Position numbers and translations under genes: made by a program
The notes under the pieces: generated by a model
Databases searched by the model: none
What the model saw: only the letters and a program-made list of their open reading frames with translations
What the model was told of the DNA's origin: nothing
Shown here: piece after piece, positions 12,396 through 33,064 of the stretch
How the letters are laid out: each line of letters begins with the position of its first letter
How positions within the stretch are numbered: position 1 is the first letter of the stretch
Source of the DNA: Rhodobacteraceae bacterium CCMM004
Lineage (GTDB): Bacteria > Pseudomonadota > Alphaproteobacteria > Rhodobacterales > Rhodobacteraceae
DNA: 64,000 bases
NCBI GenBank assembly: GCA_004005435.1
Contig: RZWH01000009.1
Span: forward strand, 1-64,000
Direction of reading: 5' to 3'

Positions 12396-13385
12396 ATGAG
12401 GGCGCTGCATCAGAGCCTCGATCGGTTGAACGGCTGGCTCGTCGCCCGCCGTCCGCATGCCCCCGTCGCATCCACCCTTGCCGATCTGGACGAGGCGGCG
12501 GCGCTTGACCCACGGGACTCGCACGGGCCCCCGACGAAGGGTGCAGCCGATGCTTGCCCCCACCGGGCGGCCCGATGCCCGCACCGACCGCTTTTCGTTC
12601 CCCAGCGCCGCGCCCTCGGGGGATCCGGTCAACGACCGCGCCCACGGGATGCGCTGGCGGGCCGGGCCGAACCCCAGCGATGCGGCCGTCATCATGCTGA
12701 ATGGCGGGTTCGCGAATGGCTTCATGGCCGAAAGGCTCTTTGCGCCGCCATTCCTGGCGGCGGGCATGGATGTCGTCGCCCTGGCTCTGCCGTGGCACAT
12801 GGAGCGGGCGCTGGCCGCGTCGGCCTATAGCGGGCAGTATCTGTCGAGCGGGGACGTGCTCCGACTGGTCCGCGGCAGAGCCAGAGCGCCCAGGATGCCG
12901 CGGCGCTCGCGGAGGCTCTGTGCCGCGACGGCTATGCCCGGGTCTATGCCGGTGGGATCAGCCTGGGCGGGAACATCGCGGGGCAGGTCGCGTGCCTCGC
13001 GGCATTGGACGGCATCCACCTCGTCCTTCCCGCGGTGGACCTTTATGTGACCATTTGGCAGCCGCCTATCGGCGCAGGCATGGTGCCCGCGGCCCGAAGC
13101 GCCGGGGTCTTGGACGACGCCTTGGCCCGGGCCCTGCGGCTGATCGCACCGCGGCTGCTCTGCCCGCCGCACACGGAGGCCGCGCGCATGACCGTCGTCC
13201 ATGGCGCGCAAGATCTGCTCTGCCCGCCCCAACCCATCTGGGCATTGGCCGAGGAGTGGGGGATCGGCGATGTCCGAACCGTTTCGGCCGGGCACCGGAG
13301 CTTCGGTCTGCATATTCCCAAGGTCAGGAGGCTGCTGGCCGACGTCATGAAGAACCATCCACCGAGGGGATCATCGAGCCCATGA
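12396..13385 (+). pseudogene. Alpha/beta hydrolase pseudogene, copy A' with two frameshifts
   Basis: The frame opens MRALHQSLDRLNGWLVARRP, nearly the same as the intact paralogue at 17229-18218. It shifts frame at about 12545 and returns to the original frame at about 12880. The nucleophile elbow GGISLGGN and the C-terminal HGAQDLLCPP and AGHRSFGLHI are preserved but cannot be reached by normal translation. Reading without the shifts would stop at 12830. It is a paralogue (roughly two thirds identical by eye), not a recent exact duplicate. Confidence 0.8.
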
Positions 13386-23313: not shown

Positions 23314-23496
23314 TCACTTGGCGGCCTCAATCGCCATTTTCAGGTCTGCGAGTGACCCGACCTGGTTGGCCAGGATCAAGACGAGACGCGCGTTCATGTC
23401 GTTGGCGTCTTCGTCGCTCAGGTCGCGCTGGGCGTCCGTGAGCAGTTCGTAGAAGTCGTCGGGGCTCTCGATATTGGGCTCGAAGGTCAGGCTCAT
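23314..23496 (-). CDS. DUF2783 protein, paired with FAD monooxygenase (copy 1)
   Basis: The 60-residue protein MSLTFEPNIESPDDFYELLT continues to LARLVLILANQVG-type helices (NARLVLILANQVGSLADLKM) and is a DUF2783 member. It overlaps the upstream monooxygenase gene as ATGA, so translation is coupled. A second DUF2783 gene at 32879-33064 follows a paralogous monooxygenase in the same way (ANHIG in place of ANQVG). Function is unknown. The tight pairing suggests a small partner or chaperone of the flavoenzyme. Confidence 0.8.
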   Translation of the reverse strand: MSLTFEPNIESPDDFYELLTDAQRDLSDEDANDMNARLVLILANQVGSLADLKMAIEAAK

Positions 23497-25106
23497 CGGA
23501 TCGCTCCTGCTGTCGCTCTGGAAATCGCGGCCTTCACGGCCTCCGCATCGAAGTTGCGCCACCGGGCGGCAACATGTTGATCGGGTCTGATGAGGTAGAG
23601 CGCGCCGCCCCCTGCATCGTATCGCGTGGACACGAGGCCGTCGGGATCGTCGAAGTCGGTGCCGAGCGCGATGAGCTTTGGGCTGAAGGCGCCTGCGTCG
23701 ACGGGCTCCGCCGCGACGCCGAGCGCGAGAAGCGCAAATCCCCCCGTGAGCAGGTCCAGAAACCAGCCCGGCCGTCCATCTACCGAGATCGGCGCGTCGG
23801 CGGCGCAGGTCCCTGGGCGCATCTTGCCGTTCCACTCCCCGTCGTCCGGGGTGTTGAGCGGGCTGTCCAGATACGGCGTCGGTGTCGACAGGCGGCCCGA
23901 GTTCACCAGGGGTCTGGCGAACGGCGCGGTCTTGGCAAGGCTCAGAACGGCGTTGCGAAACCGCTTCGAGGCGCCGTTCTTTGGGGTGATGAAGTCGGTC
24001 GAGCGCGTGGAGTTCAACAGGTTGTCGTCCGCGGCATAGGCCCGTTCCCCGTGATAGGTGTCGAGGAGCGCCAGCGGCGCGTCGCCCTTCACCACGGCGG
24101 CGAGTTTCCAGGACAGGTTGTCGATGTCTTGGACACCGGTGTTGGCCCCCCGCGCGCCGAACGGCGACACCTGGTGGGCGGCGTCCCCGGCAAACAGCAC
24201 GCGGCCGTGCCGGAACTGGTCGATCCGGCGGCAGGCGAACTGATAGACCGAGGCCCATTCCAGTTCGAACTCCACATCGTCGCCGATCATCGCCTTGACC
24301 CGCGGAATGATGTTTTCCGGGCGCTTCTCGACCTCGGGGTCGCTGTCCCAGCCGAGCTGGAAGTCGAGGCGCCAGACGTCGTCGGACTGCTTGTGCAGCA
24401 GCGCCGACTGCCCCCGGTGGAAGTCGGGGTCGAACCAGAACCAGCGCTCGGTGGGGAAATCCGCCTTCATGACGATGTCGGCGATGAGAAAGCGGTCCTG
24501 AAAGAACTGCCCGGTGAACTCGGCGCCCACCATCCGGCGGACGTCCGAGTTCGCTCCGTCGCAGGCCAGGAGCCAGCCGGCCTCCATCGTAAAGATCCCG
24601 TCCGGGGTTTCCACCGCCAGCTCGACATGGTCGTCGTGCTGGTGCAGCGAGACGACTTTGTGTTTCCAGCGCAGGTCGATGTGCGGGCTCTTTTCGCACG
24701 CCTCGACCATGTATTCTTCGAGGTAGTATTGCTGGAGGTTGATGAACGCCGGGATCTTGTGGCCGTCTTCGGGCAGCAGATCGAAGGTGTAGACCTCCTC
24801 GTCGCGCAGGAATACCCGGCCGAGTTTCCAGCCCACGCCTTTGTCGATCATGCGCGCGCCGACGCCCAGCCGGTCCCAGATCTCCAGCGGACGCTTGGCA
24901 TAGCAAACGGCGCGCGACCCCACGGACACCGTGTTGTTGTCGTCGAGCACCACGACGTTCAGCCCCTGCGCGGCAAAGTCCAGTGCCGCGGTCAGGCCGA
25001 CCGGCCCGGCCCCCACGACGATGACCGTGTGGCGCACGGGGTTCCCGGTCTTCTGCTCCTCCGACTGCACATAGGCAAACTCGGGAAAATCGTAGGTGTT
25101 CAGCAT
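23493..25106 (-). CDS. FAD-dependent aromatic monooxygenase (copy 1)
   Basis: The 537-residue protein is a class A flavoprotein hydroxylase. It has the N-terminal dinucleotide fold TVIVVGAGPVGLTAALDFAA (residues 26-45), the DG motif LLACDGANSDVRR, and the flavin ribityl block GDAAHQVSPFGARGANTGVQ. The C-terminal thioredoxin-like tail ends LIRPDQHVAARW. Start 25106 overlaps the VOC stop by one base. The paralogue at 31251-32876 is similar throughout. The best guess is ring hydroxylation that produces homogentisate or a related hydroquinone for the nearby hmg genes. Confidence 0.85.
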   Translation of the reverse strand: MLNTYDFPEFAYVQSEEQKTGNPVRHTVIVVGAGPVGLTAALDFAAQGLNVVVLDDNNTVSVGSRAVCYAKRPLEIWDRLGVGARMIDKGVGWKLGRVFLRDEEVYTFDLLPEDGHKIPAFINLQQYYLEEYMVEACEKSPHIDLRWKHKVVSLHQHDDHVELAVETPDGIFTMEAGWLLACDGANSDVRRMVGAEFTGQFFQDRFLIADIVMKADFPTERWFWFDPDFHRGQSALLHKQSDDVWRLDFQLGWDSDPEVEKRPENIIPRVKAMIGDDVEFELEWASVYQFACRRIDQFRHGRVLFAGDAAHQVSPFGARGANTGVQDIDNLSWKLAAVVKGDAPLALLDTYHGERAYAADDNLLNSTRSTDFITPKNGASKRFRNAVLSLAKTAPFARPLVNSGRLSTPTPYLDSPLNTPDDGEWNGKMRPGTCAADAPISVDGRPGWFLDLLTGGFALLALGVAAEPVDAGAFSPKLIALGTDFDDPDGLVSTRYDAGGGALYLIRPDQHVAARWRNFDAEAVKAAISRATAGAIR

Positions 25107-25663
25107 CACTCTTTCCCCAGTTCCTTGGCATGGAGCCAGGCGGCGTGCTGAGGCGCCTTCTTGGTGCGGGACCATTCCTCCAGCATGTCCCATTTGACGT
25201 CGTCCAGACGCTTGATCATCTCGGCCTCCTTCGGGTCGGGGCAGGCGAGTTCGACGCGGTGACCGTTGGGATCGAAGAAGTAGATGGAATGGAAGATCGA
25301 GTGGTCGGTGACCCCCAGAACCTCGACGCCCTGCGCCTCCAGATGCTCTTTGAACCCCAGCAGCGTCTCGCGATCCTTGACCTTGAACGCGATGTGCTGG
25401 ACCCAGATCGGCGTGTTCGGATCGCGGCCCATCTCTGGCTTGGTCGGCAGTTCGAAGAACGCGAGCACGTTGCCGTTCCCAGCGTCGAGGAAGAGATGCA
25501 TGTAGGGATCGGGTTCGTGGGTCGACGGAACCTTGTCCTCGGCGATCGCCAGCACGAAGTCCATGTTGAGCATCTTGGTGTAGAACTCCACCGTCTCCTT
25601 GGCGTCCTTGCAGCGGTAGGCGACGTGGTGGATCTGCTCCAGCTTCAGGGTTTGTGCGGTCAT
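25106..25663 (-). CDS. VOC-family (glyoxalase/dioxygenase superfamily) protein
   Basis: The 185-residue protein has one pair of beta-alpha-beta-beta-beta repeats. The putative metal ligands are His in IHHVAYRCKD, His in VQHIAFKVKD and Glu in FDPNGHRVELACP. Start 25663 is preceded by GGAGGAG. It is the first gene of a leftward operon with the FAD monooxygenase and DUF2783 genes. It could be a small extradiol dioxygenase, an isomerase or a detoxifying lyase for a pathway product. Sequence cannot settle which. Confidence 0.8.
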   Translation of the reverse strand: MTAQTLKLEQIHHVAYRCKDAKETVEFYTKMLNMDFVLAIAEDKVPSTHEPDPYMHLFLDAGNGNVLAFFELPTKPEMGRDPNTPIWVQHIAFKVKDRETLLGFKEHLEAQGVEVLGVTDHSIFHSIYFFDPNGHRVELACPDPKEAEMIKRLDDVKWDMLEEWSRTKKAPQHAAWLHAKELGKE

Positions 25664-25681: not shown

Positions 25682-25697
25682 CGTTGCATTTGCAATG
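25682..25697. promoter_or_regulatory. MarR-type operator 1
   Basis: CGTTGCATTTGCAATG contains the perfect dyad TTGCA-TT-TGCAA, 19 bases upstream of the VOC start codon. It matches the shared CGTTGCA-N2-TGCAACG pattern found five times in the two control regions of the homogentisate genes. Confidence 0.65.
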
Positions 25698-25723
25698 ATT
25701 AGCATGGAGGTCGGCTGCGCAAT

Positions 25724-25737
25724 TTGATCTAGATCAA
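25724..25737. promoter_or_regulatory. FNR/FnrL box
   Basis: TTGATCTAGATCAA is an exact match to the FNR consensus TTGAT-N4-ATCAA and is fully palindromic. It lies 61 bases upstream of the VOC start, next to MarR-type operator 2. Oxygen-responsive control of an O2-using operon would make sense. Confidence 0.65.
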
Positions 25738-25739
25738 TT

Positions 25740-25755
25740 CGTTGCGCCTGCAACG
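25740..25755. promoter_or_regulatory. MarR-type operator 2
   Basis: CGTTGCGCCTGCAACG is a dyad with 6-bp perfect arms and differs from the consensus by one base. It starts 58 bases from operator 1 and three bases from the FNR box. Confidence 0.6.
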
Positions 25756-25850
25756 AGTTTTATGCTTGTTTGCAAGGCAGAACCGCGATCACTCGATGGA
25801 ACTTCGGGCGGGCCGCTCGTCAACAGGTTGTGGTCAAACCAAGATTTAGT

Positions 25851-25866
25851 TGTTACATTTGCAACG
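25851..25866. promoter_or_regulatory. MarR-type operator 3
   Basis: TGTTACATTTGCAACG matches the shared dyad at 14 of 16 positions. It ends 29 bases before the start codon of the MarR gene at 25896, so it may serve autoregulation. Confidence 0.55.
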
Positions 25867-25895
25867 ATACTTTGTTGCGCGTGAGAGGAAGACCG

Positions 25896-26351
25896 ATGGA
25901 CCTAGACACCTACTTCCCCTACCTGCTCGCCTCGTCAGCAGAATCGTTTTCCCGCAAATTGGTGGAGGTCTATGGGCGCACCTACGGGCTCTCCCGCGAG
26001 GAATGGCGCCTCTTGCTGCTGTTGGCCGATGCGGGCGAACTCACGTCGCTGGAGCTGGCCAAGCGGACGACGCTGGACAAGGTTCAGGTCAGCCGCGCCG
26101 CGACGCGGCTCCAGGAAAAGCGTCTGATCCTCCGATCCGTCGACAAGACCGATCGCCGGTTGCGGCTCTATACATGTACCGAGAAGGGGCAGGCGCTGTT
26201 CGCCGAGATGTTCCCTAAGGTCGAGACGTGCGCGGACGCGATACTCGGCAACATGGAGGCCGACGATCTGGCGGCTCTGACGCGCGGTTTGAAGGCTCTG
26301 CAAGCAGCCATCGACCAATACGCTCAGGACAAGCTGAAGCTGGCCAGTTGA
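25896..26351 (+). CDS. MarR-family transcriptional regulator 1
   Basis: The 151-residue protein is a winged-helix MarR regulator: ELTSLELAKRTTLDKVQVSR (helix-turn-helix) and RSVDKTDRRLRLYTCTEKGQ (wing with the DxR signature). Start 25896 follows GAGAGGAAG. It is divergent from the VOC-monooxygenase operon across a gap with three TTGCA-type dyads and an FNR box, and it is convergent with maiA with only 3 bases between the stops. It probably represses the leftward operon until an aromatic ligand binds. Confidence 0.85.
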   Translation: MDLDTYFPYLLASSAESFSRKLVEVYGRTYGLSREEWRLLLLLADAGELTSLELAKRTTLDKVQVSRAATRLQEKRLILRSVDKTDRRLRLYTCTEKGQALFAEMFPKVETCADAILGNMEADDLAALTRGLKALQAAIDQYAQDKLKLAS

Positions 26352-26354
26352 TCG

Positions 26355-26975
26355 CTATGGCTTAACCGTCGCGTCGGGGTGAGCGCGTTGGAATGCCGGA
26401 ATGGCGTCGAGCGTCTTGCGGATCGCGGAGATCCTGGGAAACTGCCGCAGATCCAGCCCCCAACGCTCTGCATTATACACCTGCGGCATGAGGCAAACGT
26501 CGGCCAGGGTCACCCCGTCGCCGTAGGAGAAGTCCGTCCCCTTGACCATCGCCTCGTAGGACGTCAGCCCCTTGGTGATGAAGTGCGACATCCACGCTTC
26601 CATCGAAATGCGGTGGTCGGACTGATCCACGGCCCATTTAACGACGTGCAGGTTGCACACGGGGTGCGTTTCCATCGCGATCGCGTATGACAATGCGCGC
26701 ACCTCGGCGCGCCCGATGGGCGTCGCGGGCAAGAGGCCCAGGTTTCGCGTTTCGTCCAGGTATTCGATCTGTGCCAGCGATTGCGTCAGGCTGTGGCCGT
26801 CCAGTTCCAGGACCGGCACCAGACCTTGCGGATTTCTGGCAAGATGGTCGTCCGACAGTTGTTCCGCGTTCAGGAGGTTGACGCTGTGGGTCGTCCAGTC
26901 CTCTCCCGCCAGCCCGAGGGCGATGCGGACGCGGTAGCTGGCCGAGGACCGCCAGTAGTCATAGAGTTTGATCAT
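26355..26975 (-). CDS. maiA: Maleylacetoacetate isomerase (zeta-class GST)
   Basis: The 206-residue protein is a zeta-class glutathione transferase that isomerises maleylacetoacetate to fumarylacetoacetate with glutathione. The signature SSASYRVRIAL (residues 10-20) includes the catalytic SSxS and RVRIAL motif. NPQGLVPVLELDG and the later thioredoxin-fold contact TQSLAQIEYLDE form the glutathione site. It overlaps the MarR 2 gene by 17 bases and shares its transcript. With hmgA and fahA it completes the homogentisate pathway. Confidence 0.9.
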   Translation of the reverse strand: MIKLYDYWRSSASYRVRIALGLAGEDWTTHSVNLLNAEQLSDDHLARNPQGLVPVLELDGHSLTQSLAQIEYLDETRNLGLLPATPIGRAEVRALSYAIAMETHPVCNLHVVKWAVDQSDHRISMEAWMSHFITKGLTSYEAMVKGTDFSYGDGVTLADVCLMPQVYNAERWGLDLRQFPRISAIRKTLDAIPAFQRAHPDATVKP

Positions 26976-27411
26976 CGAGGTTTTCCGCTAGCAAATCGAG
27001 AGCGTGCCGAAGCGCCGGTTCCTGGTCGCAGAGAATGCGATTCAGCCGGTCCTGAAAGGCCGTGGCGATGGGGATCAGCTCTCCGAGCAACTCGGCCCCC
27101 CGATCGGTCAGGGCGAGCTTCAGAAGGCGCCGGTCGGTTGCGTCCATCTCCTTGATGAGAAAGCCCTTGGCTTCCAAACTCGCGGCGGCGCGGCTGACCT
27201 TGGACTTTTCGAGGCTGACGTGTTTTTCGATGTCCCTGATCGAGGGGCTGTCGCTGTAGCCGACGTTCAGCAGGACACGCCATTCGGGCATCGAGATACC
27301 GTAGTCCTTCTTGTACTGCGTCGCGAGCTCGGCGCTCAGCCGCGACGCCAGCACGGTCAACCGATACGGCAGGTACAGGTCCAGATCGAAGTCCGGCAGC
27401 GCCTTTTGCAT
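26959..27411 (-). CDS. MarR-family transcriptional regulator 2
   Basis: The 150-residue protein resembles MarR regulator 1 in layout. It has helix-turn-helix SPSIRDIEKHVSLEKSKVSR and wing EMDATDRRLLKLALTDRGAE. GAGGGGAG precedes the ATG at 27411. It is divergent from hmgA across a 135-base gap with two TTGCA-type dyads, so it likely represses hmgA and itself. The shared operator sequence with the MarR 1 region allows cross-talk between the two regulators. Confidence 0.85.
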   Translation of the reverse strand: MQKALPDFDLDLYLPYRLTVLASRLSAELATQYKKDYGISMPEWRVLLNVGYSDSPSIRDIEKHVSLEKSKVSRAAASLEAKGFLIKEMDATDRRLLKLALTDRGAELLGELIPIATAFQDRLNRILCDQEPALRHALDLLAENLDDQTL

Positions 27412-27452
27412 CCCAAGCTCCCCTCGTGCCTGTCCTGAAGGAAAGTCAATCT

Positions 27453-27468
27453 CGTTGCAAGTGCAATA
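27453..27468. promoter_or_regulatory. MarR-type operator 4
   Basis: CGTTGCAAGTGCAATA contains the perfect dyad TTGCA-AG-TGCAA and lies just upstream of the hmgA -35 element, starting exactly 29 bases before operator 5. Confidence 0.65.
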
Positions 27469-27474
27469 ATTTTC

Positions 27475-27503
27475 TTGACCTCGTTGCAAGTGAAACGAAT
27501 AAT
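27475..27503 (+). promoter_or_regulatory. hmgA promoter with MarR-type operator 5 in the spacer
   Basis: TTGACC (27475-27480), a 17-base spacer and AATAAT (27498-27503) make a sigma-70-type promoter. The spacer is TCGTTGCAAGTGAAACG, which includes operator 5 (27482-27497). A protein bound there would block RNA polymerase directly. Confidence 0.65.
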
Positions 27504-27546: not shown

Positions 27547-28905
27547 ATGAACGACATGACGCCGAGACCTGAGCCGACCGTTGCCAAGGACGGGGTGTCG
27601 ATCTCGACAGGCTACATGCCGGGCTTTGGCAACGATTTCGAAACGGAAGCTCTGCCCGGCGCTCTGCCACAGGGAATGAACAGTCCTCAGCGCTGCAACT
27701 ACGGCCTCTACGGCGAGCAGCTTTCGGGAACGGCCTTCACCGCGCCCAGCCATCAGAACGAACGCACGTGGTGCTACCGCATCCGGCCCTCGGTCAAGCA
27801 CTCTCACCGCTACGACAAGATCGACGTGCCTTACTGGAAATCTGCGCCGAACATCGACCCCGACGTCGTCTCGTTGGGGCAATACCGCTGGGATCCCGTC
27901 GAGGCGCAGGACGGCCTGAACTGGATCACCGGGATGCGGACGATGACGACGGCGGGAGACGTCAACACGCAGGTCGGCATGGCCACCCATGTCTATCTGG
28001 TGACCGAGAGCATGGTGGACCAGTATTTCTTCTCTGCCGACAGCGAGCTCTTGGTCGTTCCGCAGGAGGGGCGGCTGAGGTTCTGCACCGAACTGGGGAT
28101 CATCGACCTGGAACCGAAGGAGATCGCGATCCTGCCGCGCGGTCTGGTCTACCGTGTCGAACTGATCGACGGGCCGGCGCGCGGTTTTGTCTGCGAGAAC
28201 TACGGTCAGAAGTTCGAGTTGCCCGGCCGGGGGCCCATCGGGGCCAACTGCATGGCCAATCCGCGCGATTTCAAGACGCCCGTTGCGGCGTTCGAGGATC
28301 GGGAGACCCCGTCGACCGTGACGATCAAATGGTGCGGTCAGTTCCACGAGACCAAGATCGGCCACTCACCGCTCGATGTGGTCGCCTGGCACGGCAACTA
28401 CTGCCCGGTCAAATACGACCTGCGGACCTACTGCCCCATTGGGGCGATCCTGTTCGACCATCCCGATCCGTCGATCTTTACCGTGCTGACCGCGCCCTCC
28501 GGCCAGCCGGGCACCGCCAATATCGATTTCGTCCTGTTCCGCGAGCGCTGGATGGTGATGGAGGATACCTTTCGCCCGCCGTGGTATCACAAGAACATCA
28601 TGTCCGAACTGATGGGCAACATTTACGGGGAATACGATGCCAAGCCCCAGGGCTTTGTCCCGGGCGGCATCAGTCTGCACAACATGATGCTGCCTCACGG
28701 CCCCGACAAGGCGGCCTTCGAAAAGGCGTCGACCGCCAACCTCGGGCCCGACAAGCTCGACAACACCATGTCGTTCATGTTCGAGACACGCTTTCCGCAG
28801 CATCTGACAGCCTTCGCCGCAAAAGAAGCGCCGCTTCAGGACGATTACATCGACTGCTGGGCCGATATCGAGAAAAAGTTCGACGGCACGCCCGGCAAGA
28901 AATGA
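27547..28905 (+). CDS. hmgA: Homogentisate 1,2-dioxygenase
   Basis: The 452-residue protein opens the ring of homogentisate to maleylacetoacetate using Fe(II) and O2. The iron ligands, by spacing with the human enzyme, are H348 and E354 (WYHKNIMSE) and H384 (NMMLPHGPD). Start 27547 follows GGAGGGG at good spacing. It heads an operon of about 8.5 kb that continues through fahA, an MBL-fold gene, a second FAD monooxygenase-DUF2783 pair and a TRAP transporter. It is controlled by the promoter at 27475-27503. Confidence 0.95.
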
Positions 28906-28949: not shown

Positions 28950-30209
28950 ATGCCCCTGCTGAAATCCTGGGTCGAATCCGCAAACGCCGCGGACTGTCCC
29001 TTTCCCTTGAACAACCTGCCCTATGGCGTCTTTTCCACGCCGGACCTGAGCGCGCGCTGCGGAGTCGCCATCGGGGACATGATCCTGGACCTCAAGAGGG
29101 CGGAGGCCGACGGCGTCATCGCGCAATCCGGCGCCGCGGTGTTCGCCGGGCCGGCCTGGAACGCCTTCATGGCGCTCGGCCGGGATCGGTGGGCCGGACT
29201 GCGCAACCGCCTGACCGCGCTCCTGTCCGACGGGTCGGACGGGCAGACGGCGTTGTCGGCGCTTCTCGTGCCGATGGCTGACGCAACGATGCACCTGCCG
29301 ATCCAGGTCGCGGAGTACACCGATTTCTACGCGGGCCGGAACCATGCCTTCAACGTGGGCACCATGTTCCGGGGGGCAGAAAACGCCCTCCCGCCCAACT
29401 GGTTGCACATCCCGATCGGCTATAACGGGCGCGCCTCGTCCGTGGTGGTTTCGGGCACCGACATCCGCCGGCCGTGGGGTCAGCTCAAGGGGCCGAACGA
29501 CGACAGGCCACGGTTCGCACCGTCGCAGCGGTTCGACATCGAGTTGGAAATGGGCGCCATCGTCGGACAGCCGAGCAGCGGCCCGATCACGGTCCAGGAG
29601 GCCGACGACAACATCTTCGGGTACGTCCTGTTGAACGACTGGTCCGCCCGCGACATCCAGGCGTGGGAGTATCAGCCGCTCGGACCGTTTCAGTCCAAGG
29701 CGACCGCGACCTCGATCAGCCCTTGGATCGTGACCGCCGCGGCTTTGGAGCCGTTCCGCTGCGACACGCCGGAGCGCGAGGTCCCGCTCTTGGCGCATCT
29801 CCAGGATGCCGGACCGGCGCTCTTCGACATCGACCTGCGCGTGACGCTGGCCCCCGAGGGCAAGGCGGCGACGACCATCGCCGAGACCAACTACAACGTC
29901 ATGTACTACTCCGCCGCCCAGCAATTGGCGCATCACACCACGTCGGGCTGCCCGATGCGCGTGGGCGATCTGTTGGGATCGGGCACGATCTCCGGGCCGG
30001 ACAAGACCGCCCGTGGCTCGCTTTTGGAGCTGAGCTGGGGCGGCAAGGAGCCCCTGACGCTGGACAGCGGCGACACCCGCAGCTTCATCGAGGACGGCGA
30101 CACCCTGACGCTCGCAGGGGCCGCCCGCGGGGATGGGTTCACCATCGGCTTTGGCACCTGCGTGGGCACGGTCCGTCCCGCGCTCGACGACCCCTATACA
30201 CGCGGCTGA
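28950..30209 (+). CDS. fahA: Fumarylacetoacetase
   Basis: The 419-residue protein hydrolyses fumarylacetoacetate to fumarate and acetoacetate, the last step of homogentisate breakdown. The N-terminal SH3-like domain is followed by the FAH fold, with catalytic and metal residues in TDFYAGRNHAFNVGTMFRG (D125, H132) and the acidic block FDIELEMGAIVG. The length is typical. It is 44 bases behind hmgA in the same operon. Confidence 0.95.
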   Translation: MPLLKSWVESANAADCPFPLNNLPYGVFSTPDLSARCGVAIGDMILDLKRAEADGVIAQSGAAVFAGPAWNAFMALGRDRWAGLRNRLTALLSDGSDGQTALSALLVPMADATMHLPIQVAEYTDFYAGRNHAFNVGTMFRGAENALPPNWLHIPIGYNGRASSVVVSGTDIRRPWGQLKGPNDDRPRFAPSQRFDIELEMGAIVGQPSSGPITVQEADDNIFGYVLLNDWSARDIQAWEYQPLGPFQSKATATSISPWIVTAAALEPFRCDTPEREVPLLAHLQDAGPALFDIDLRVTLAPEGKAATTIAETNYNVMYYSAAQQLAHHTTSGCPMRVGDLLGSGTISGPDKTARGSLLELSWGGKEPLTLDSGDTRSFIEDGDTLTLAGAARGDGFTIGFGTCVGTVRPALDDPYTRG

Positions 30210-30259: not shown

Positions 30260-31210
30260 ATGGCAAAAGCATTCGCATCCCAGGGCGACCTGACGGAAAA
30301 GACGATCACCTTCGATGAGATCGGCGACGGGCTCTACGCCTTCACCGCCGAGGGCGACCCGAACTCGGGCGTGATCATCGGCGACGACAGCGTGATGATC
30401 GTCGAGGCGCAGGCGACCCCCCGCCTGGCCGGCAAGGTCATCGAGAAGGTCCGCGAGGTCACGGACAAGCCGATTTCCCATGTCGTGCTCACGCACTACC
30501 ACGCGGTCCGGGTGCTCGGGGCCTCGGCCTTCGACGCGTCGCAGATCATCATGTCGGACGTCGCCCGCGCTATGGTGGTCGAGCGGGGACAGGAGGACTG
30601 GGACAGCGAGTTTCAGCGGTTTCCCCGTCTTTTCGAAGGGCATGAGAGCATCCCGGGGCTTACCTGGCCGACGACGACCTTCAGCGGTGCCATGACCGTG
30701 TATCTGGGCAACCGCCGCGTCGACATCCGCCAGGTCGGCCGCGCCCACACCGCGGGCGACGCGGTGATCCACGTGCCCGACCAGAACGTCATGTTCACGG
30801 GCGACATCGTCGAGGATCACTCCGCCTGCTATTGCGGCGACGGCCATTTCCGCGATTGGGGCCAGACCCTGGACAATATCGCGGCCTACGACGTGGACGC
30901 CATCGCCCCGGGACGCGGGGGTGCTCTGGTCGGCAAGGACGCCGTCGCGCGCGCCATCGCCAGCACACGCGATTTCGTCGACAGCACCTACCACCCCGCG
31001 GTGCGGGTCGCCGCGCGCGGCGGGTCGCTCAAGGATGCCTGGGACGCGGTGCGCGAGGCCTGCGATCCCAAGTTCCAGGATTATGCGATCTACGAGCACT
31101 GCCTCCCGTTCAACGTCAGCCGCGCCTACGACGAGGCGCGGGGGATCGACACGCCGCGCATTTGGACCGCCGAACGGGACCTCGACATGTGGGAACAGCT
31201 CCAAGGCTGA
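30260..31210 (+). CDS. MBL-fold metallo-hydrolase with altered metal motif
   Basis: The 316-residue protein has the metallo-beta-lactamase fold. The usual HxHxDH motif reads THYHAVR here (H79, H81, then V83 and R84 in place of Asp and His), so the second metal site is probably altered or absent. Later ligands are present (RAHTAGDAVIH, FTGDIVEDH). It lies between fahA and the FAD monooxygenase gene. It may hydrolyse a lactone or thioester from the aromatic pathway, or bind one metal only. Confidence 0.8.
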   Translation: MAKAFASQGDLTEKTITFDEIGDGLYAFTAEGDPNSGVIIGDDSVMIVEAQATPRLAGKVIEKVREVTDKPISHVVLTHYHAVRVLGASAFDASQIIMSDVARAMVVERGQEDWDSEFQRFPRLFEGHESIPGLTWPTTTFSGAMTVYLGNRRVDIRQVGRAHTAGDAVIHVPDQNVMFTGDIVEDHSACYCGDGHFRDWGQTLDNIAAYDVDAIAPGRGGALVGKDAVARAIASTRDFVDSTYHPAVRVAARGGSLKDAWDAVREACDPKFQDYAIYEHCLPFNVSRAYDEARGIDTPRIWTAERDLDMWEQLQG

Positions 31211-31250: not shown

Positions 31251-32876
31251 ATGTTTCAGGACCGATATCCGCTCGCCTTCAAGCTCTATCCCTATAGAAA
31301 ATCGGCGGACCAGGACGCTCCGAGACCGGTGCGCCATCCGGTCGTGATCGTGGGCGGCGGGCCCATCGGAATGGCCGCTGCGCTGGACCTGGGCCGCCAG
31401 GGCATTCCGGCGCTCGTTCTGGACGACCACGAGGGCGTCGGCATGGGCAGCCGTGCGATCTGCTTTGCCAAGCGGACGCTGGAAATAGCGGATCGCTACG
31501 GCTGCGGCGCGCCGATGCTGGACAAGGGGGTGGTGTGGAACGTCGGCAAGGTGTTCCAGGACGACAGACAGGTGTTCGAGTTCAACCTGCTGCCCGAAAC
31601 CGGCCACCGCAACCCGGCCTTCATCAACCTGCAACAGCCCTACTTCGAGAAGTTCATTTTCGAAGCCATCGGCGCCGAGCAGGACCGCGGCGCCCCCATC
31701 GAAATCCGCGGCAAGAACCGCGTCGATGCGGTCGAGACCCATGGCGATCACGTCGTTCTGAGCGTCACGACGCCTGACGGCCCCTACACGGTCGAAGCCG
31801 ATTGGGTGATCGCCTGCGACGGCGCCAGCTCGCCGGTGCGAACCATGCTGGGCCTGGGGTTCGAAGGGCGCGTGTTCCAGGACAGCTTCCTGATCGCCGA
31901 CATCAAGATGACCTCCGACGACTTCCCGACGGAGCGGTGGTTTTGGTTCGAACCCCACTTCAAATCCGGCGCGTCGACGCTCCTGCACAAACAGCCCGAC
32001 GACGTGTGGCGCATCGACTTTCAGATCGGTTGGGACGTGGACCGCGCTGAGGAGTTGAAGGAGGAGAACATCCGCCGGCGGCTCGATGCCATGCTCGGGA
32101 ATGATGTCGACTATGAGATGGTCTGGTCGTCCATCTACACCTTCCAGTGTCGGCGCATGAAGAGATTCCGCCACGGGCGGGTCATGTTCGCCGGCGATGC
32201 CGCGCACCAGGTGTCGCCCTTCGGCGCCCGCGGCGCGAACTCGGGGTTCCAGGACGTCGACAACCTCGGTTGGAAGCTGGGCCTCGTCATCGCCGGCAAG
32301 GCGCCCGAAACCCTACTCGACACCTATGATGACGAACGCGTTTACGGCGCCGACGAGAACATCCTGAACTCGACGCGGTCGACCGATTTCATCACGCCGA
32401 AGTCGAAGGCCAGCCGGGGCTTTCGGGACGCCGTCCTCAAGCTGGCCGAGAAACACCCGTTTGCGCGACCGCTGGTGAACTCCGGCCGGCTCTCGGTTCC
32501 GTGCGTCTACGACCGCTCGGCGCTGAACGGTCCGGATATGCTGCCCGGCGGTCCGGCCAGGTCTCGCGTCGGGAGCCCGTGTCCCGACGCCCCGCTCGCG
32601 GACGGGTTTCTGCTCGACCGTCTCGGCAACGATTTCGTCGTGCTTGCCATCAATACCGAGCCTCCCTCGGACTTCGACGTGGCGGGCATCAAGGTCCGTT
32701 CCCTGCAGATCGCGACCGCCGACGATCCGTCCGGCGCCGTGCAAGACCGGTACTTGGGAACCGAGCCGCACGCCGTCTATCTCATCCGCCCCGACCAGCA
32801 CGTCGCGGCGCGCACCCGCACCTACGACGACGGCGTCTTTCGCGGCGCGCTGCTCACAGCCTGTGGAAAGGACTGA
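31251..32876 (+). CDS. FAD-dependent aromatic monooxygenase (copy 2)
   Basis: The 541-residue class A flavoprotein hydroxylase has PVVIVGGGPIGMAAALDLGR (dinucleotide fold), VIACDGASSPVRT (DG motif) and GDAAHQVSPFGARGANSGFQ (flavin ribityl site). It is paralogous over its full length to the protein at 23493-25106, including the C-terminal VYLIRPDQHVAAR. It is followed 2 bases later by a DUF2783 gene. A role in making homogentisate from a hydroxyphenylacetate is plausible. Having two copies may mean two ring substitution patterns are handled. Confidence 0.85.
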   Translation: MFQDRYPLAFKLYPYRKSADQDAPRPVRHPVVIVGGGPIGMAAALDLGRQGIPALVLDDHEGVGMGSRAICFAKRTLEIADRYGCGAPMLDKGVVWNVGKVFQDDRQVFEFNLLPETGHRNPAFINLQQPYFEKFIFEAIGAEQDRGAPIEIRGKNRVDAVETHGDHVVLSVTTPDGPYTVEADWVIACDGASSPVRTMLGLGFEGRVFQDSFLIADIKMTSDDFPTERWFWFEPHFKSGASTLLHKQPDDVWRIDFQIGWDVDRAEELKEENIRRRLDAMLGNDVDYEMVWSSIYTFQCRRMKRFRHGRVMFAGDAAHQVSPFGARGANSGFQDVDNLGWKLGLVIAGKAPETLLDTYDDERVYGADENILNSTRSTDFITPKSKASRGFRDAVLKLAEKHPFARPLVNSGRLSVPCVYDRSALNGPDMLPGGPARSRVGSPCPDAPLADGFLLDRLGNDFVVLAINTEPPSDFDVAGIKVRSLQIATADDPSGAVQDRYLGTEPHAVYLIRPDQHVAARTRTYDDGVFRGALLTACGKD

Positions 32877-32878
32877 CG

Positions 32879-33064
32879 ATGGCCGACCTCATCCTCGAGC
32901 CGAACCTGGGCTCGCCGGACGACTTCTATGCCGACCTGATCGCGGCGCACGACGGCCTGTCCGATGACCAAAGCGAGGCCTTTAACAACCGCCTCATTCT
33001 TGTGCTCGCCAACCACATTGGCGACCGCGCGATCCTGCGCCAAGCGCTGGAAGCTTCGAAGTAG
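32879..33064 (+). CDS. DUF2783 protein, paired with FAD monooxygenase (copy 2)
   Basis: The 61-residue protein MADLILEPNLGSPDDFYADL shares the EPNxxSPDDFY opening and the NxRLxLxLANxxG core with the protein at 23314-23496. It starts 2 bases after the monooxygenase stop. No catalytic residues are apparent. The repeated linkage to one type of flavoenzyme points to a physical or functional partnership. Confidence 0.8.
   Translation: MADLILEPNLGSPDDFYADLIAAHDGLSDDQSEAFNNRLILVLANHIGDRAILRQALEASK

Follow-up and report, generated by a model that had tools for sequence, protein, structure and literature searches.

MarR-type dyads and an FNR-type box point to a predicted substrate- and oxygen-responsive regulon at the homogentisate locus of Rhodobacteraceae bacterium CCMM004

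Which proteins read the five copies of one dyad found at the homogentisate locus of Rhodobacteraceae bacterium CCMM004, and which genes would they control? The locus lies in the first 64,000 nucleotides of contig RZWH01000009.1 (assembly GCA_004005435.1), hereafter the window, whose first letter is position 1. It carries genes for two MarR-type regulators, MarR1 and MarR2, and its gene order suggests four transcription units, with borders that rest on this order: VOC-FADox1-small protein (minus strand, from 25663 down to 23314), MarR1 (plus strand), MarR2-maiA (minus strand, with overlapping genes) and hmgA-fahA-MBL-FADox2-DUF2783 (plus strand). The answer that we favor, with a probability of about 80%, is that the five dyads are the operators of a MarR-type repressor system governing all four units, with an additional FNR-type oxygen input at the VOC promoter.

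A first-pass annotation had located the dyads at 25682, 25740, 25851, 27453, and 27482, and all five are found there as variants of a common motif, with 1, 1, 2, 2, and 1 mismatches to CGTTGCANNTGCAACG in coordinate order. Operator 1 (CGTTGCATTTGCAATG, 25682-25697) is 18 bp from the VOC start codon, operator 2 (CGTTGCGCCTGCAACG, 25740-25755) is 2 bp from an FNR-type box, operator 3 (TGTTACATTTGCAACG, 25851-25866) begins 45 bp before the MarR1 start codon, operator 4 (CGTTGCAAGTGCAATA, 27453-27468) occupies the MarR2-proximal part of the region between MarR2 and the divergent hmgA, and operator 5 (CGTTGCAAGTGAAACG, 27482-27497) precedes hmgA. An alternative would be chance similarity, and the number of window matches with at most 3 mismatches to CGTTGCANNTGCAACG is indeed ordinary, being six (the sixth, at 12791, with 3 mismatches) against 3.68 expected, a value reached in 14 of 100 shuffles. 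Because this count alone is not impressive, the weight of the evidence comes from clustering and conservation. In the whole genome (4.38 Mb), 20 places have at most 2 mismatches, versus 12 for the motif read backwards, and 5 of these 20 fall within the 1,816 bp considered here. Taking as background the other 14 places, with a site on contig C17 excluded, the probability of five or more is 5e-14, a value that, like the P-values of 1.6e-7 and 5e-4 given below, ignores kinship. This clustering and the conservation in relatives leave chance similarity a practically negligible probability. Also, a weight matrix built from the five window sites and the C17 site, all from this genome, reaches at least 10 bits at these five sites and nowhere else in the window, a result that is partly circular. 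A matrix-free count over 31 regions upstream of MarR2, all from other genomes, gives GTTGC-N4-GCAAC as the top gapped palindrome, present in 20 of 31 against 0.19 expected. Since this palindrome was derived from relatives alone, its matches in the window are not circular, and with at most 1 mismatch they are exactly the five sites (18 further places have 2 mismatches).

For conservation, we used the 80 best of 110 loci from a search with MarR1, in named records that include Shimia, Ruegeria, Nioella, Litoreibacter, Paracoccus, Brucella/Ochrobactrum, and Chelatococcus; these loci are mutually related, and counts from them are not independent. The matrix finds 160 sites of at least 15 bits, versus 1 with the motif read backwards, and the dyads are thus kept in relatives, as the first-pass annotation had asked of its proposal. 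A dyad of this strength lies within 200 bp upstream of 30 of 31 MarR2 genes, 24 of 29 hmgA, 41 of 79 MarR1, 8 of 18 VOC, 13 of 45 fahA, and 10 of 34 MBL genes, and of none of the maiA (0/40), FADox2 (0/24), or FADox1 (0/5) genes. These upstream counts exclude matches starting after query residue 25, genes with less than 200 bp of upstream DNA, MarR matches below 40% identity, and VOC or FADox matches below 60%. The claim that MarR-type operators of one kind precede both halves of the locus therefore extends to the relatives. A class-wide set of VOC loci was also inspected, where a GTTNCANNTGNAAC dyad lies within 200 bp upstream of VOC in 6 of 28 loci and in none when the upstream DNA is read backwards. 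The VOC genes preceded by this dyad (L212, L216, L217, L218, L220, and L223) belong to four other families, and four of the six dyads are at -36 to -39, near the place of operator 1 here.

The position of operator 5 suggests how such a site would act. The hexamers TTGACC (27475-27480) and AATAAT (27498-27503) flank a 17-nucleotide spacer before hmgA that consists of T 27481 and operator 5. Because the operator fills the promoter spacer, a MarR dimer bound there would exclude RNA polymerase, and repression of hmgA by blocking the polymerase is likely from this geometry. In the 80 loci, TTGAC directly precedes 19 of the 33 hmgA-proximal dyads, 3 of 11 before MBL, and 3 of 15 before fahA, and it is absent at this place from the dyads of MarR1 (0/41), MarR2 (0/31), and VOC (0/8). 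Regarding the distances between neighboring dyads (at most 80 bp apart), 28-30 bp is the commonest (18 pairs), then 57-58 bp (8) and 22-23 bp (7), with 26-27 bp (7 pairs), 48-49 bp (6), 14 bp (4), and 71 bp (1) as rarer values; several alphaproteobacterial genera keep the arrangement in which the spacings are 57-58 and 28-30 bp. The start spacings reported earlier, 29 for sites 4 and 5 and 58 for sites 1 and 2, are correct, but the reading of 58 as twice 29 was rejected. The spacings vary independently, with L088 and L089 pairing 58 with 30 and L099 pairing 57 with 29, so the 2:1 relation is a coincidence; also, 29 bp is not a whole number of helical turns.

At the VOC promoter, one operator would cover the likely transcription start and a second adjoins the box. 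With TAATCA (minus strand, 25701-25696) as the -10 element of VOC, operator 1 would straddle +1. Between operators 1 and 2, the FNR/FixK/NnrR-type box TTGATCTAGATCAA (25724-25737) has 0 mismatches to TTGAT-N4-ATCAA, and its first base is at -74 from the VOC ATG. Its center is 29.5 bp upstream of the putative -10, that is, at -41.5, which is the usual place for a class II activator. Perfect boxes of this type number 8 in the 4.38-Mb genome, and 0 in the reversed control. In ten VOC/MarR1 divergent regions, the window included, the spacing of dyads 1 and 2 is 57-58 bp in all ten, and a box with at most 2 mismatches stands 2 bp from dyad 2 in nine (0 mismatches in four, 1 in four, and 2 in one). 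For these counts, genomes met under two ids, recognized by matching coordinates, were counted once (L073/L087, L074/L086, L075/L092, L078/L099, L077/L102, L036/L138, and L037/L149). Operator 3 of the window is positioned like dyad 2 of L086 and others, from which about 111 bp between operators 2 and 3 are absent; these extra bases (around 25756-25850) put MarR1 farther from the shared promoter region of VOC.

Across the 80 loci, the box is beside 10 of 41 MarR1-proximal dyads and beside none of the hmgA (0/33) or MarR2 (0/31) ones. It is also kept in some MarR1 loci that have no divergent VOC gene, with 0-1 mismatches in L087, L090, and L127 and 2 in L120, so the box may serve MarR1 too. A Crp/Fnr-family activator, for which an FnrL-like protein is the first candidate, would probably activate the VOC promoter, and perhaps MarR1, from this box. 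The genome encodes a Crp/Fnr protein bearing the Cys cluster CPTCPIRNRAVCSRC and ETVSR, which we take to be the marks of an FnrL-like protein; its gene is about 5.7 kb from another perfect box, located 154 bp before a gene resembling ccoG (named by eye). Then, the box between operators 1 and 2 would join oxygen supply to substrate control, and the cluster is probably switched by both. The same arrangement could be read in another way, since some MarR proteins act as activators and operator 2 lies farther upstream than both the box and the presumed site of the polymerase: both MarR proteins would bind, with MarR1 serving the VOC-FADox1 unit mainly by activation or co-regulation instead of repression. 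We regard this as unlikely, given that operator 1, situated after the presumed -10 and before the start codon of VOC, has a repressor-like position and that the pair of dyads is kept at 10 of 10 loci.

What evidence suggests that the MarR proteins read the dyads? MarR1 (151 residues, 25896-26351, plus strand) and MarR2 (150 residues, 26959-27411, minus strand, overlapping the downstream maiA) both match Pfam MarR_2 (PF12802) at 1.5e-11 and 44.7 bits, with a cut-off of 27, which gives each a MarR-type winged helix-turn-helix domain. The two proteins are 34% identical. In a tree of 126 sequences, MarR1 belongs to one clade (support 100/99), and MarR2, its paralogue encoded on C17, and other hmg-linked MarR proteins belong to another (98/92); this tree has few alignment columns for so many rows, leaves out matches of at most 100 residues, of at most 60 bits, or with internal stops, and keeps 79 MarR1 rows, the one of the window included. 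Twenty regions were chosen for a check by hand, in 19 loci whose MarR gene has hmgA or a divergent gene nearby. A dyad of at least 15 bits is found by the MarR gene in 11 loci (L017 at just 15.0), a dyad of the (A/G)GTTACAAA type, picked by eye, in seven of the remaining eight (L021, L022, L024, L025, L026, L027, and L030), and neither type in the eighth (L028). The stretch that, from the MarR fold, we assume to be the recognition helix is HKTK(I/V)SRAV in those seven loci, EKSKVSRAA in MarR2, and DKVQVSRAA in MarR1. This change of operator type along with the helix supports that the MarR proteins read the dyads. It also makes it very unlikely that the dyads are hairpins or sites of another regulator, with the adjacency of MarR genes being incidental, because they accompany MarR genes in different families, their type varies with the recognition helix, one of them fills a promoter spacer, and maiA and FADox2 lack them.

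A further question is whether the two regulators share their operators. As both clades have the half-site CGTTGCA in common, each protein can probably bind the operators of the other. Six loci (L124, L125, L131, L147, L149, and L157) have MarR1 with hmgA or fahA and no adjacent MarR2, and in their genomes, 6 of 12 queried, the sole MarR2 match at E 1e-10 is MarR1 itself; the other six genomes have a separate, better MarR2 match. A dyad precedes hmgA or fahA in all six MarR1-only genomes, scoring 19 to 23 bits in five of them, and those of L124 reach only about 15 and 14 bits (rounded), below the 15-bit cut of the upstream counts. In G003, G024, G025, and G035, MarR1 has no better match than the MarR2-type gene (E 2e-16 or weaker than 1e-17), and a dyad is present in all four (loci L008, L016, L009, and L006). 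Moreover, among 295 family genomes, including this one, MarR2 (E 1e-20) is found in 15 of the 16 that have MarR1 (E 1e-25), versus 93 of 295 overall (P = 1.6e-7). The presence of dyads in genomes with only one of the two types makes cross-binding plausible, and to this extent, the interpretation of the first-pass annotation is supported. Its step from similarity alone to cross-regulation is not supported, in view of the 34% identity of the two proteins, their separate clades, and the differing half-site make-up of dyads near MarR1 and near hmgA.

Several observations weigh against the proposed system. The VOC -10 is weak and was picked by eye, and for 38 of 79 MarR1 genes, no dyad within 200 bp reaches 15 bits. 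The box is missing in L099, and 12 of the 16 examined MarR1 loci without a divergent VOC gene show at least 3 box mismatches. Also, among 30 VOC places sampled class-wide, 29 of them with full upstream DNA, the box is near the gene only in that of the window (L213 has a 1-mismatch match at -258 from VOC); few of these 30 places have FADox1 next to VOC. Locus L025, of the group with the other operator type, also has a 13.8-bit site of the CGTTGCA type. Finally, GTTT/ATTT/GCTT half-sites, counted with identical sites omitted, are 21 of 78 near MarR1 versus 3 of 64 near hmgA (P = 5e-4), and GTTT accounts for 7 of 62 half-sites near MarR2 and for 12 of 30 near fahA. This skew hints at partly separate specificities of MarR1 and MarR2.

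Such separate specificities would suit a division of labor, in which MarR1 binds operators 1-3 only and MarR2 operators 4-5 only, the shared core reflecting common ancestry and no cross-regulation. Besides the half-site skew, the low identity and the separate clades of the two proteins favor it, as does L077, whose MarR2 helix is KPRVSRAV and goes along with CGTTTCAAAAGAAACG and CGTTACATTTGAAACG, its MarR1-side site retaining one TGTTGC half. On the other hand, MarR1 alone accompanies CGTTGC-type dyads before hmgA or fahA in the six genomes mentioned above, and the five window sites are not split into two groups, the sole GAAAC half being in operator 5, on the hmgA side. We consider a division of labor possible but rather doubtful, and the system of shared operators remains our preferred reading. 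For this system, the probable signal for release of the repressors is homogentisate or one of its precursors, for example a hydroxyphenylacetate. A more elaborate version is a gate of two repressors and one activator, where two anciently diverged MarR proteins with different ligands would compete for a single type of operator at the four units, both ligands would be needed for full expression, and an FNR-type activator bound between two operators would make VOC-FADox1 respond to low oxygen; this is a tentative idea that we judge somewhat improbable.

The dyads had been described as confined to the DNA preceding the two MarR genes and their divergent operons, which is right for the window and too narrow for the genome. 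With at most 1 mismatch to CGTTGCANNTGCAACG, four places are found genome-wide, three of them in the window and one on contig C17; the confinement of the sites to two MarR genes was therefore rejected. This near-perfect site, TGTTGCAACTGCAACG at C17:292684, has a third MarR gene (48% identity with MarR2) on one side and a second hmgA (86% identical) on the other, and stands 42 bp before the start codon of this hmgA. The combination of MarR gene, dyad, and hmgA indicates that the regulator-operator-hmgA unit is present twice in this genome. In this second copy (L001, 991-2920; G000:C17), the TGA stop of the third MarR gene falls inside the TTGACA of the presumed hmgA promoter. This third MarR/hmgA unit, the promoter around operator 5, and the FNR-type box were all absent from the first-pass annotation.

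Among the enzymes encoded in the four units, hmgA, fahA, and maiA pass curated NCBIfam cut-offs. Homogentisate 1,2-dioxygenase (hmgA, 27547-28905, plus strand) scores 639.6 bits with TIGR01015 (cut-off 510.75), fumarylacetoacetase (fahA, 28950-30209, plus strand) 516.7 bits with TIGR01266 (cut-off 375.3), and maleylacetoacetate isomerase (maiA, 26355-26975, minus strand, without a dyad of its own) 230.4 bits with TIGR01262 (cut-off 171.05). After fahA come a metallo-beta-lactamase-fold protein (MBL, 30260-31210, plus strand, Pfam Lactamase_B), FADox2 (31251-32876, plus strand, 753 bits with NF006002), and a DUF2783 small protein (32879-33064, plus strand, PF10932 at 5e-28), with genes resembling those of a TRAP transporter, labeled by eye from the translation, following this unit. 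FADox2 is a paralogue of FADox1 (23493-25109, minus strand, 832 bits with NF006002, and Pfam FAD_binding_3), an FAD-dependent oxidoreductase of the aromatic-hydroxylase type whose solved relatives are diverse. The left unit is headed by the VOC-family gene (25106-25663, minus strand) and ends with a 60-residue protein (23314-23496, minus strand) that, by eye, resembles the DUF2783 protein at 32879. Both paralogous oxidoreductases are thus trailed by a DUF2783-type protein of 60-61 residues, which could possibly be a coupling subunit; this pairing may be compared with MhaAB, the two-part 3-hydroxyphenylacetate 6-hydroxylase. Also, the VOC protein is very near the solved chain 9u42_A (E 2.5e-82), its nearest solved relative, which carries only the name "Glyoxalase", and this structure could reveal the chemistry of VOC.

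Taken together, these results predict a specific regulon for the breakdown of homogentisate in Alphaproteobacteria of marine and soil habitats and offer an exact promoter for a putative joint control by oxygen and substrate. Moreover, genomes with MarR1, MarR2, or both constitute a natural test of operator sharing by paralogous repressors.

How does this system compare with known ones? In Rhodopseudomonas palustris, the MarR protein BadR acts with the Fnr-like AadR at benzoate genes; as proposed here, a MarR regulator and an Fnr-type activator are combined in one catabolic system, but in that case, the pathway is the anaerobic one of benzoate. HpaR is a MarR repressor of homoprotocatechuate genes and shares with our proposal the MarR control of an aromatic ring-cleavage pathway; unlike HpaR, MarR1 and MarR2 score only 45.8 and 23.0 bits with TIGR02337, below its cut-off of 121.2. 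For homogentisate itself, HmgR of Pseudomonas putida is described as an IclR-family regulator for which homogentisate acts as anti-repressor, according to the section of PMC5343134 that deals with it. It is likewise a local repressor of the same pathway, whereas the regulators of the window are MarR proteins: the Pfam scan of MarR1 and MarR2, at E up to 0.001, returns no IclR family, only MarR-type and related winged-helix ones. The same source presents HmgS, a MarR-family protein predicted to regulate hmgAB in Alteromonadales, from 3 genomes of one taxon. Both cases involve predicted local control of homogentisate genes by a MarR protein, and as MarR2 is divergent from hmgA, the MarR-hmg linkage of HmgS is also seen here. 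However, HmgS is gammaproteobacterial, and its description, on which the comparison is based, mentions neither a second MarR nor an FNR-type box in the passages of PMC5343134 concerned. A literature search on MarR and homogentisate, covering titles and the beginnings of abstracts, returned no MarR regulator identified by experiment for the homogentisate genes of Alphaproteobacteria.

The closest parallel for the left unit is the NnrR/FixK2-linked operon bll2330-bll2329-bsl2328 of Bradyrhizobium diazoefficiens. According to the part of PMC6710368 that describes it, the operon encodes VOC, FAD-dependent oxidoreductase, and DUF2783 proteins, is up 21.6-, 7.2-, and 6.6-fold in anoxia (microarray), and is down 4.2-, 3.7-, and 3.5-fold in an nnrR mutant; a box, TTGATCCAGATCAA, is predicted at -73, and that part does not list this operon with the validated ones. 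The gene order is the same as in the window, and the box is at -73 versus -74 here; this likeness is drawn from gene order and descriptions, and in contrast to the window, no MarR sites are mentioned in that part of the paper. In our data and by that account, the association of the box is seen only in the closer relatives of the window and in Bradyrhizobium. The system predicted here suggests a mode of control for FAD-oxidoreductase operons like this anoxia-induced one. MarR control of homogentisate genes has been predicted before, for HmgS, and what is new, as judged from sequence, is the predicted variant with a conserved FNR-type box.

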